Positions 11,359 through 16,579 of a stretch of 64,000 nucleotides of DNA are shown one piece after another (position 1 is the first letter of the stretch; each line of letters opens with the position of its first letter). A model generated the notes under the pieces. The model ran no database searches. It saw only the letters and a list, made by a program, of their open reading frames with translations, and was not told the origin of the DNA. Origin of the DNA: Candidatus Rokuibacteriota bacterium (GTDB taxonomy: Bacteria > Methylomirabilota > Methylomirabilia > Rokubacteriales > CSP1-6); the NCBI GenBank assembly GCA_003220435.1, contig QHSL01000061.1, forward strand, positions 62,001 through 126,000. The letters run 5' to 3'. The position numbers and the translations under genes were made by a program.

Positions 11359-11422
11359 TGAATCCAGGGGCGGCGCTCCGCGCTTGGAGGCGCCGCTCGA
11401 GCGCAGCGGAAAGGAGTCGCTA

Positions 11423-12250
11423 ATGCCGACGGTCAGGCTGAGAGACGCTTCCGAGTATCCCGGCCCGGTCCAGAAGCTGTTCGAGGTGGCGAAGGCCTGG
11501 TTCAACCACGACTTCGCCCAGCCGCCGGCGATGAGCCGGGTCATGGCCTGGGACACCGAGCTGGGCGGGTTCCACGGCCGCGCGATGAAGCGCGCCATGG
11601 CGCCCGGCGAATTCACCCGCGCCGAGAAGGAGATGGTCGCGGCGGTCGTCAGCGGCGTCAACGCCTGCGCGTACTGAGTGCAGGCGCACACTGCAGCCGG
11701 GAAGCTGCAGGGGATGAGCGACGACGCGCTCTGGTACGAAGCCGCGCTGGTGGTCGGCGTCACCAACGCCCTGAACGTGGTCGCCGATGCGCCGCTGGCG
11801 GCGCTCGAGCCCGCGCAACCCGCGCCCGAGGCGGAGGTGGTGTTCGCCGAGATTCGCGCCTTCTACGGACGCGCCGACGTGCCGGCGCCGTTTCGCCGGG
11901 TGGCCGCCGATCCCGGCTATCTCGCCGATCTCTGGGGGGCGACGCGCCGCGTCTCGGCCGACAATCGCCTCACCCGTCGTCTCAAGGAAGCGCTCGCGTT
12001 CGCGGTCTCGGTGACGACGCGCTCGCAGTTCGGCACCGCGTTCCACCTGGGCGAGATGCGCCGCCTCGGCGTGGGCGAAGGCGGCGTCCTGGAGGTGCTC
12101 GGCGTCACGCAGATGTTCTCGAGCTACACGAAGATCGCCGACACGCTCCAGCTCGAGCCCGACATGGGCGCCATCGCGCCGGTGGACTGGTCGCCGGCGC
12201 CCGGCGGCGCGCCGCCCTCGCCGAAGGTGCGGGCGCCGGAAGCCCCGTAG
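11423..12250 (+). CDS. Selenocysteine-containing AhpD-like protein (in-frame UGA at 11675-11677)
   Basis: Read through UGA the frame gives 275 residues. The N-terminal half is a carboxymuconolactone-decarboxylase/AhpD fold: RAEKEMVAAVVSGVNACAY-U-VQAH, where the family motif is C-x-x-C-x-x-x-H. Cys82 is present, the UGA is codon 85, exactly at the second Cys, and His89 follows at the right distance. A hairpin begins 13 nt after UGA. The C-terminal half (about residues 130-250, LKEALAFAVSVTTRSQFGTAFH) looks like a second AhpD domain that has lost its cysteines. AhpD proteins reduce peroxide or peroxidase partners through the CxxC pair; here a Cys-Sec pair would serve. ATG is set by AAAGGAG 8 nt upstream. 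An independent 190-residue start at the GTG after the UGA would lack the active site. Confidence 0.85.
11691..11710 (+). promoter_or_regulatory. Bacterial SECIS-like hairpin in the AhpD-like gene
   Basis: CTGCAGC (11691-11697) pairs perfectly with GCTGCAG (11704-11710) around a CGGGAA loop. Thirteen nt separate the UGA from the stem and 20 nt separate it from the loop, nearly the same geometry as in the peroxiredoxin gene. Confidence 0.7.
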
Positions 12251-12344: not shown

Positions 12345-12737
12345 ATGCCAAGGATCGAGAAGGTCTGCGCGAAGTCGGTCTACGATCCGCCGGTGTACTG
12401 TCAGGCCATCAAGGTCACCGGCGCCCAATCGATTCTCTTTCTCTCCGGGCAGGTCGCCTACGACAAGTCCGGCGGCGTCCTCCATCCCGGCGACTTCAAG
12501 GCGCAGGCGCGCGAGGCGTTTCGCGCGCTGCTGGCCCACGTGAAGGCCGCGGGCGGAACGGCCCAGAGCATCGTCAAGGTCAACACGTACCTGACCGACA
12601 TCCGCTACCGCGCGGATCTGCCGGCGGTCCGCGAGGCAATCTTCGGCAAGAAGCTTCCGGCGTCGACGCTGGTCGCCGTGTCGGCGCTCGCGCACCCGGA
12701 CTGGCTGATCGAGGTCGAGGCGATCGCGGTGGTCTAG
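12345..12737 (+). CDS. RidA family protein (YjgF/UK114)
   Basis: 130 residues, the family length, with GAQSILFLSGQVAYD, KVNTYLTDI and a C-terminal IEVEAIAVV strand. RidA hydrolyses reactive enamine/imine intermediates of pyridoxal-phosphate enzymes. The catalytic Arg of true RidA (in PxRSxV) is replaced here (PASTLV), while the Glu of the last strand remains, so it belongs to another Rid subgroup and enamine deaminase activity is uncertain. GAGGAG lies 6 nt before ATG. Confidence 0.88.
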   Translation: MPRIEKVCAKSVYDPPVYCQAIKVTGAQSILFLSGQVAYDKSGGVLHPGDFKAQAREAFRALLAHVKAAGGTAQSIVKVNTYLTDIRYRADLPAVREAIFGKKLPASTLVAVSALAHPDWLIEVEAIAVV

Positions 12738-14766: not shown

Positions 14767-15645
14767 GTGAACGTCGCCATCACGCCGGCGATGCTCGGGC
14801 AGGTGGTCGTGTCCGGGATCCTCGCCGGCGCGCTCTACGCGATGGTCGCGCTCGGCCTCGCGCTGATCTTCGGCGTGATGCGCGTCATCAACATCGCCCA
14901 TGGGCCGCTCCTGATGCTGGGTGCCTACACCACGTTCTTCATCTACCAGGCGCTTGGCCTGAACCCCTACCTCACCGTCCCGATCACGATGCTCGTTCTG
15001 TTCATCCTGGGCGCCCTCCTGCAGCGCACGCTCGTGTACCGGGTCGTCGACGCGCCGGAGCTCTCGTCGCTCCTGCTCACCTTCGGCATCTCGATCGCGC
15101 TGGTGAACCTGGCCCAGCTCGCCTTCACGTCCAATCTGCGAACGGTCGAGTACGTGACGGGCTCCTACACGCTCGGGCCGCTCGCCTTCTCGAAGTCCCG
15201 GCTCATCGCGTTCGTGGTCGCCGCGGCGCTCGCCGGCCTCGTGTTCCTGTTCCTGCAGCGCACGCGGCTCGGCAAGGCCATCCGCGCGACGTCGCAGAGC
15301 CGCGAGGTGGCGATGGTCTGCGGCGTCGACGTGCAGCGCATCCATCGGATCACCTTCGGCATCGCGGCGGCGCTGGCGGGGGCCGGCGGCGCGCTCGTGT
15401 CGGTGATCGTCGCGATCCAACCCGAGATGGGCCAGATCTGGACGTTCAAGTCGTTCCTCGTCATCGTGCTGGGCGGCGCCGGCAACTATCCCGGCGCGCT
15501 GCTGGGCGGCGTCCTGCTCGGTCTGGTCGAGCAACTCGCCTCGCTGTTCCTGACGACCCAGCTGTCGGAGGCGGTCGCGTACATCCTGCTCGTGCTGATT
15601 TTATTGGTGCGGCCCACCGGGCTGCTCGGCGGTCGGCAGACGTGA
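14767..15645 (+). CDS. livH: Liv-type ABC transporter permease LivH
   Basis: 292 residues from GTG; hydrophobic throughout with about eight membrane helices. GVMRVINIAHGPLLMLGAY near the N-terminus and QPEMGQIWTFKSFLVIVLGG near residue 220-240 are LivH signatures. The stop overlaps the next GTG (GTGA). Its 3' 425 bases are repeated downstream inside the chimeric gene. Confidence 0.93.
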   Translation: MNVAITPAMLGQVVVSGILAGALYAMVALGLALIFGVMRVINIAHGPLLMLGAYTTFFIYQALGLNPYLTVPITMLVLFILGALLQRTLVYRVVDAPELSSLLLTFGISIALVNLAQLAFTSNLRTVEYVTGSYTLGPLAFSKSRLIAFVVAAALAGLVFLFLQRTRLGKAIRATSQSREVAMVCGVDVQRIHRITFGIAAALAGAGGALVSVIVAIQPEMGQIWTFKSFLVIVLGGAGNYPGALLGGVLLGLVEQLASLFLTTQLSEAVAYILLVLILLVRPTGLLGGRQT

Positions 15646-16579
15646 CGCCGCGGGGGACGTTCCGCCTCGGGCTCGTGGTCCTCGTAGCCGCGCTGGCCGT
15701 CTATCCAGCCGTCGGCACTGGGTACGGCGTGCGCGCGGTGCTGCAGATCTTCATGTGGATCGCGCTGGCCGCGTCGTGGAACTTGATCTCGGGGCTGACC
15801 GGCTACGTCTCGTTCGGCCACGTGGCGTTCTTCGGCGCCGGGGCCTACACCGGCGCGATCCTCATCACCCGCGCCGGCTGGTCGTGGCCGACCGCGGCGC
15901 TCGCCGGCGTCGCGTTTCTGTTCCTGCAGCGCACGCGGCTCGGCAAGGCCATCCGCGCGACGTCGCAGAGCCGCGAGGTGGCGATGGTCTGCGGCGTCGA
16001 CGTGCAGCGCATCCATCGGATCACCTTCGGCATCGCGGCGGCGCTGGCGGGGGCCGGCGGCGCGCTCGTGTCGGTGATCGTCGCGATCCAACCCGAGATG
16101 GGCCAGATCTGGACGTTCAAGTCGTTCCTCGTCATCGTGCTGGGCGGCGCCGGCAACTATCCCGGCGCGCTGCTGGGCGGCGTCCTGCTCGGTCTGGTCG
16201 AGCAACTCGCCTCGCTGTTCCTGACGACCCAGCTGTCGGAGGCGGTCGCGTACATCCTGCTCGTGCTGATTTTATTGGTGCGGCCCACCGGGCTGCTCGG
16301 CGGTCGGCAGACGTGACGCCGCGGGGGACGTTCCGCCTCGGGCTCGTGGTCCTCGTGGCCGCGCTGGCCGTCTATCCAGCCGTCGGCACCGGGTACGGCC
16401 TGCGCGCGGTGCTGCAGATCTTCATGTGGATCGCGCTGGCCGCGTCGTGGAACTTGATCTCGGGGCTGACCGGCTACGTCTCGTTCGGCCACGTGGCGTT
16501 CTTCGGCGCCGGGGCCTACACCGGCGCGATCCTCATCACCCGCGCCGGCTGGTCGTGGCCGACCGCGGCGCTCGCCGGC
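15221..16579. repeat. 671-bp tandem duplication spanning the livH-livM junction
   Basis: Every base from 15221 to 15891 recurs 671 bp later. Boundaries are marked by a 17-bp stretch (ccgcggcgctcgccggc) present once in livH (15221), at the junction (15892) and in intact livM (16563), so the duplication probably arose by exchange between this short homology in livH and livM. I find three substitutions in the livM part (15686/16357, 15719/16390, 15729/16400) and three just after the junction (15909, 15913, 15917), none noticed in the livH part. Confidence 0.9.
15642..16316 (+). CDS. Chimeric LivM(N)-LivH(C) permease created by the duplication
   Basis: 224 residues: residues 1-87 are nearly identical to the start of intact LivM, and the rest is identical to the LivH C-terminal half (from FLFLQRTRLGK). 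The junction is in frame and the gene keeps GTGA overlaps with both neighbours, so it is translatable within the operon. It lacks the LivM coupling region, so function as a permease subunit is doubtful; it may be an inert product or compete for assembly. A polymorphism in a mixed population or an assembly artefact should be excluded. Confidence 0.8.
   Translation: MTPRGTFRLGLVVLVAALAVYPAVGTGYGVRAVLQIFMWIALAASWNLISGLTGYVSFGHVAFFGAGAYTGAILITRAGWSWPTAALAGVAFLFLQRTRLGKAIRATSQSREVAMVCGVDVQRIHRITFGIAAALAGAGGALVSVIVAIQPEMGQIWTFKSFLVIVLGGAGNYPGALLGGVLLGLVEQLASLFLTTQLSEAVAYILLVLILLVRPTGLLGGRQT

Follow-up and report, generated by a model that had tools for sequence, protein, structure and literature searches.

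The locus described here raises the question of whether an in-frame UGA in an AhpD-like gene of an uncultured soil bacterium ends a short protein or encodes selenocysteine (Sec) in a longer one. The gene lies in a stretch of 64,000 nt, here called the window, from Candidatus Rokuibacteriota bacterium (GCA_003220435.1, contig QHSL01000061.1, positions 62,001-126,000 of the forward strand). The sole internal stop of frame 11423-12250(+) is the TGA at 11675-11677, corresponding to residue 85 of 275, and the translated active-site stretch reads N-A-C82-A-Y-U85-V-Q-A-H89. In the signature E-x11-C-x-Y-U-x3-H the UGA takes the second cysteine position of the AhpD motif, and the motif His follows four residues later (H89 versus U85). 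The initial annotation had proposed this placement of the UGA and the His, as well as a length of 275 residues, and all its numbers were found to be correct. A Shine-Dalgarno-like site precedes the start codon, and GGAG-type sequences are also present 5' of the start in several relatives. The elements of the gene are the following:

11411..11416, plus strand: Shine-Dalgarno-like AAGGAG, 6 nt 5' of the ATG
11423..12250, plus strand: predicted coding sequence of a two-domain AhpD/CMD selenoprotein, 275 aa, one Sec, TAG stop
11675..11677, plus strand: UGA codon, predicted Sec, residue 85; all intact two-domain relatives have TGA here, and the genome encodes Sec machinery
11691..11710, plus strand: predicted bSECIS hairpin, stem CTGCAGC/GCTGCAG, loop CGGGAA, based on folding, a near-invariant core and frozen rare codons

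Relatives were searched in 95 genomes of the phylum and in named GTDB genomes, which provided 37 non-redundant intact two-domain sequences that are 45-92% identical. All 37 possess TGA at the column of residue 85. Their hosts are members of Candidatus Rokuibacteriota, one Dehalococcoidia genome and one Tectomicrobia genome, the latter with a relative (L084) of 48% identity. The Dehalococcoidia copy (L064, OX638353.1) has 72% identity and is located on a 3.4-Mb chromosome of an uncultured organism labelled as Dehalococcoidia, a group distant from Rokubacteria. This genome also carries selA, and the presence of the family there is likely due to gene transfer. One further relative of the main family (L082) is broken across two frames near residue 80, by either a frameshift or a sequencing error. 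No close Cys form of the two-domain family was found in the 95 genomes of the phylum and the named GTDB genomes. The next-nearest relatives are ordinary AhpD/CMD proteins, 20-49% identical over the matched part, with Cys at the UGA column, so that the alignment called for by the initial annotation places Cys in the distant homologues and UGA in all close ones.

Among close relatives, codon changes are mostly synonymous 5' of the UGA, immediately 3' of it and far downstream, which indicates that both sides are translated and bears out the unbroken frame that had been claimed for the two flanks of the single internal TGA. The initial annotation had also named homologues that begin after the UGA as evidence against Sec, and none was detected among the 37 relatives. 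That the UGA is a true stop, yielding an 84-residue protein and a separate downstream one, or signals a pseudogene or sequencing error, has next to no probability: a mechanical ORF does exist at 11678-12250 with GTG directly after the UGA, but the UGA is kept in independent assemblies of many genera, it sits within the catalytic motif, and the codon that follows is no conserved start, being GTG in only 17 of 37 relatives, GTC in 6, GTA in 2 and another codon in 12.

A second line of evidence comes from the RNA. The perfect 7-bp hairpin (11691-11697/11704-11710) begins 13 nt past the UGA, exactly where the initial annotation had put it. A 48-nt fold has an energy of -17.5 kcal/mol with a z-score of -1.9; for a single hairpin in such GC-rich DNA this score is unremarkable, and the decision therefore falls to the comparative evidence. 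The bacterial SECIS model, as outlined in PMC13188914, requires a loop 16-37 nt after the UGA, a stem of 4-16 bp, a G among the first two loop positions and an energy of at most -7.5 kcal/mol. The SECIS prediction that had been suggested as a check agrees with this published model, since the loop CGGGAA starts 20 nt past the UGA on a stem of 7 bp, with an early G and the energy given above for 48 nt, and the synonymous sites in the hairpin are frozen as well. Clades with only about 47% protein identity share the 17-nt core GCAGCCGGGAAGCTGCA almost unchanged, with ACT used in 27 of 28 sequences, GCA in 34 of 37, and GCC, GGG, AAG and CTG each in 37 of 37. Elsewhere in the same genes, GCA accounts for 2% of Ala codons, and GGG and CTG for 25% and 36% of their synonymous sets. 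The core thus contains codons that these genes otherwise avoid (GCA, GGG), which points to freezing of synonymous sites at the hairpin. This core also dictates the residues AAGKLQ, at which the Cys homologues vary, and judging from the sequences the invariance of AAGKLQ is probably owed to the RNA as much as to the protein. It would represent an RNA element that constrains the protein sequence over half of the family's divergence, and it provides a ready search string for further family members. The base pairs of the hairpin hardly vary across relatives, leaving no covariation signal to read. An Rfam scan of the region returned chance-level matches only, the general bSECIS going unrecognised.

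The machinery for Sec insertion is present in the genome of this bacterium: selA, selB, tRNA-Sec and selD were all identified above cut-off, which removes the other objection foreseen in the initial annotation, namely a genome lacking these genes. The selB gene adjoins selA, with tRNA-Sec close by, and selD itself encodes Sec, its in-frame UGA coinciding with the known Sec position (CAGUASK). Of the 35 genomes carrying the gene, 33 possess selA, and the two without it are 78% and 81% complete; the Dehalococcoidia host and the Tectomicrobia host also possess selA. The distance between the gene and selA is some 3-7 kb in three relatives (G010, G077, G079). A conserved UGA at a Cys/Sec column, a bSECIS and the Sec genes, by which selenoproteins are recognised, are thus all found together. 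Reading of the UGA as another residue, either Trp or Gly by a change of code or by near-cognate suppression, is highly improbable in view of this machinery and hairpin, of the Cys at this column in distant homologues, and of the several relatives that terminate this same gene with UGA. The conserved TGA column, the synonymous substitution on both sides and the frozen hairpin codons take the Sec reading far beyond chance, and the sequence comparison strongly supports that the UGA at 11675-11677 is read as Sec in an AhpD-like active site.

The protein consists of two similar halves, of which only the first has the redox pair:

11423..11797, plus strand: domain 1, active AhpD, residues 1-125, E70-x11-C82-x-Y84-U85-x3-H89, based on PF02627, TIGR00778, conservation and a structure model
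11798..12166, plus strand: domain 2, degenerate AhpD/CMD, residues 126-248, E189-x11-S201-x-F203-G204-x3-H208, no Cys, based on hhalign, PF02627 and conservation

E70, C82, Y84, the UGA at position 85 and H89 are invariant in the 28 aligned members, all of which thereby contain the relay E-x11-C-x-x-C/U-x3-H of the AhpD superfamily. At the matching positions of domain 2, Ser and Gly are found where domain 1 has Cys and Sec, whereas the His is kept (E189 in 23/28, S201 in 27/27, G204 in 28/28 and H208 in 28/28). Alignment of residues 1-126 with 127-275 by hhalign gave a probability of 96% and an E-value of 4.8e-9 over 110 columns. The full protein scores 62.3 bits against PF02627 (CMD; gathering cut-off 23), which matches 28 of 28 family members at E <= 0.001, and each half alone also passes; the second half reaches 28.9 bits and contains no Cys, in agreement with the degenerate AhpD domain that had been suspected there. 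The best AlphaFold model, built with 28 sequences, has a pLDDT of 89 and a pTM of 0.87 and contains a set of six helices that recurs in unchanged order, although the five models vary in mean pLDDT from 89 to 73. In this model the domain is repeated and the CxxU site occurs once, which corresponds to the architecture that structure prediction had been proposed to assess. Profile and model together support a fusion of two AhpD domains into a single chain, in which the first is active and the second redox-dead. The solved structures best matching the model are the AhpD-like, peroxidase-related 2oyo and 6k40 and the CMD protein 2q0t. The latter, a putative gamma-carboxymuconolactone decarboxylase subunit of two-domain length from Burkholderia xenovorans, is of similar length (TM 0.63-0.64 over 262 columns) but has 16% identity and no known selenoprotein status.

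The protein passes the TIGR00778 AhpD core domain model (51.6 versus a cut-off of 27.8 bits) and fails TIGR01926 (peroxidase-related enzyme, 49.2 versus 81.8 bits), NF041238 (AhpD_rel_CFYUT, 29.7 versus 175 bits) and TIGR00777 (AhpD, 19 versus 192 bits). The fused single-site form is therefore below all specific NCBIfam cut-offs and appears as a variant of the known CxxU AhpD kind. NF041238, the alkylhydroperoxidase-related (seleno)protein CFYUT, is likewise AhpD-related with a C-x-Y-U motif, but its model spans 357 positions, of which 215-246 form the matched motif region; it was considered as the family itself and rejected on its score, and there was no above-cut-off match in 39 relative genomes. 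CxxU AhpD-like/CMD selenoproteins were reported in 2005 in the Sargasso Sea survey (PMC1088965) and again in the 2008 GOS survey (PMC2398784), and the portion of the 2026 catalogue available (PMC13188914) lists TIGR01926 CxxU and PF02627 CxxU selenoproteins, with MBW1767730.1 and MCB9421940.1 as representatives of the CMD-like and AhpD-like CxxU proteins. The present protein shares with the Sargasso Sea and GOS proteins, as far as the accessible text describes them, the superfamily, Sec in second place of CxxU and a downstream bSECIS; it differs in that those descriptions, the sole basis of the comparison, mention no fused protein with a dead domain. It is set apart from the TIGR01926 CxxU group by its score below the cut-off (49 versus 82 bits). 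With M. tuberculosis AhpD (TIGR00777; 1gu9/1knc), whose relay consists of Glu118, Cys130, His132, Cys133 and His137 (PMC3141380), and with PA0269 it has in common the all-helical fold and the E-x11-C-x-x-C/U-x3-H relay, and with PA0269 (C-A-Y-C) also the Tyr just before the second Cys/Sec position. Unlike both, it has Sec for the second Cys, and its active domain comes first with the degenerate one second, whereas the M. tuberculosis protein carries its site C-terminally (PMC3141380). In the accessible literature no description of a fused CxxU AhpD with a dead second domain was found, and the two-domain single-site family appears not to have been catalogued yet. The accessible literature on selenoproteins of Rokubacteria/Methylomirabilota is limited to passing mention of a Methylomirabilota MAG with 63 predicted selenoproteins, the lineage being placed among the selenoprotein-richest (PMC13188914). 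The family adds an evidently real selenoprotein to this rich lineage, and standard gene callers probably read the gene as truncated.

What the enzyme does can be approached from its active site and its neighbours. AhpD proteins reduce AhpC or are peroxidases with lipoamide-linked reductants (PMC8945050). There is strong support for the insertion of Sec by SelB and Sec-tRNA at 11675-11677, with the hairpin at 11691-11710 as the guide. Domain 1 carries the complete AhpD relay of Glu70, Cys82, Tyr84, Sec85 and His89; domain 2, which has lost both redox residues (Ser201, Gly204) and kept His208, probably serves as a structural partner in the role of the second subunit of homo-oligomeric AhpD. Sec85, activated via His89/Glu70, may reduce peroxide or the disulfide of a partner, Cys82 would resolve it as a selenenyl-sulfide, and a dithiol/selenol donor would re-reduce the protein, plausibly a Sec-glutaredoxin (U-G-P-C) fed by ferredoxin:thioredoxin reductase (FTR) or thioredoxin reductase. 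A function as selenol/thiol peroxidase or disulfide reductase is most likely, with substrate and donor deduced indirectly. Taken as a whole, Sec insertion at the UGA via the hairpin, a fused AhpD pair and reduction of peroxide or disulfide by Sec85 form an explanation that can be held with good confidence.

The gene neighbourhood bears on the donor. The gene following in the window's clade is:

12345..12737, plus strand: RidA/YjgF-family gene (Ribonuc_L-PSP), with a putative functional link

In this clade the order is an AlkZ-related gene, Sec-AhpD, RidA, an unknown gene and branched-chain transport genes. Four relatives (L065, L066, L069, L075) have a same-strand cluster of a Sec-glutaredoxin (TNVG-U-GPC), the FTR catalytic chain, RidA and Sec-AhpD. 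RidA consequently stands beside Sec-AhpD in two different orders, and in the second clade a divergent RidA is located just upstream. The genome under study contains elsewhere (G000:C76) a TrxB-like (thioredoxin-reductase-like) gene followed by Sec-glutaredoxin and FTR-B; there the Sec-glutaredoxin (NVG-U-GPC; L184:3235-3909) lies directly 5' of the FTR catalytic chain. An AhpC-like peroxiredoxin, ahpC or lipoyl genes were not seen among the adjacent genes examined. FTR-B was considered as an obligate partner and rejected, a close FTR-B being present in just 20 of the 95 genomes. The electron donor is uncertain because the FTR/glutaredoxin neighbourhood occurs in one clade only and many gene-bearing genomes have no close FTR-B; a glutaredoxin- or lipoamide-type donor is a guess that this one clade supports. 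Sec-AhpD, Sec-glutaredoxin and FTR nevertheless constitute a testable electron path.

A different role would keep the Sec reading but make the enzyme catabolic or substrate-specific, either in a decarboxylase/dehalogenase-like CMD branch or together with RidA in an imine/aromatic pathway, and not a general reductase of peroxides or disulfides. In its favour, gamma-carboxymuconolactone decarboxylase belongs to the superfamily, the debrominase Bmp8 is among the fold matches (6ohj/6ohi), RidA is a repeated neighbour, UbiD adjoins the gene in the Tectomicrobia relative, a neighbour cluster (c4; L065, L069, L084) resembles by inspection an ACMSD-type amidohydrolase, and the window locus adjoins branched-chain-amino-acid-type transporters. 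Against this, no residue varies in the complete AhpD redox relay, a Sec/Cys pair marks redox enzymes, and the neighbours differ between clades, the most specific ones being redox proteins. A catabolic role is consequently considered unlikely, and reduction of peroxide or disulfide is preferred.

The family is not the only one of its kind. A second family of two-domain CMD selenoproteins, with about 30% identity, is encoded by four genomes (G031, G082, G009, G015; L194-L197); its domain 1 contains C-[HT]-Y-U-I-D-S-H, and its domain 2 has no Cys/Sec pair. A third two-domain CMD-like frame, with CNFULTVH, was found about 700 nt downstream of a main-family copy (L081:6503-7093(+)), which makes two neighbouring selenoprotein genes. 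Single-domain CMD/AhpD selenoproteins have the motifs CRYULQVH, CHYUTEAH and CHYUIESH (L198 at G019:C21, L186 and L187). Besides single-domain Sec families, Rokubacteria thus possess two or more additional two-domain ones, so that the main family is one branch of an expansion. It is conceivable, though doubtful, that this rokubacterial clan (CxYU-HTAAGKLQG, CxYU-IDSH, CNFU-LTVH), each member with one Sec-active and one redox-dead domain, provides the terminal reductases of a ferredoxin-driven relay from FTR via Sec-glutaredoxin to Sec-AhpD against oxidants. If true, a selenium-based, ferredoxin-driven relay would guard a soil lineage from oxidants.

Further downstream in the window, a 300-nt direct repeat (15221-15520 and 15892-16191; 99% identical, 671 nt apart) was noted within LivH/LivM-type permease genes. 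It yields a chimeric frame at 15642-16316 and is either an artefact of assembly or the product of a tandem duplication of recent date.
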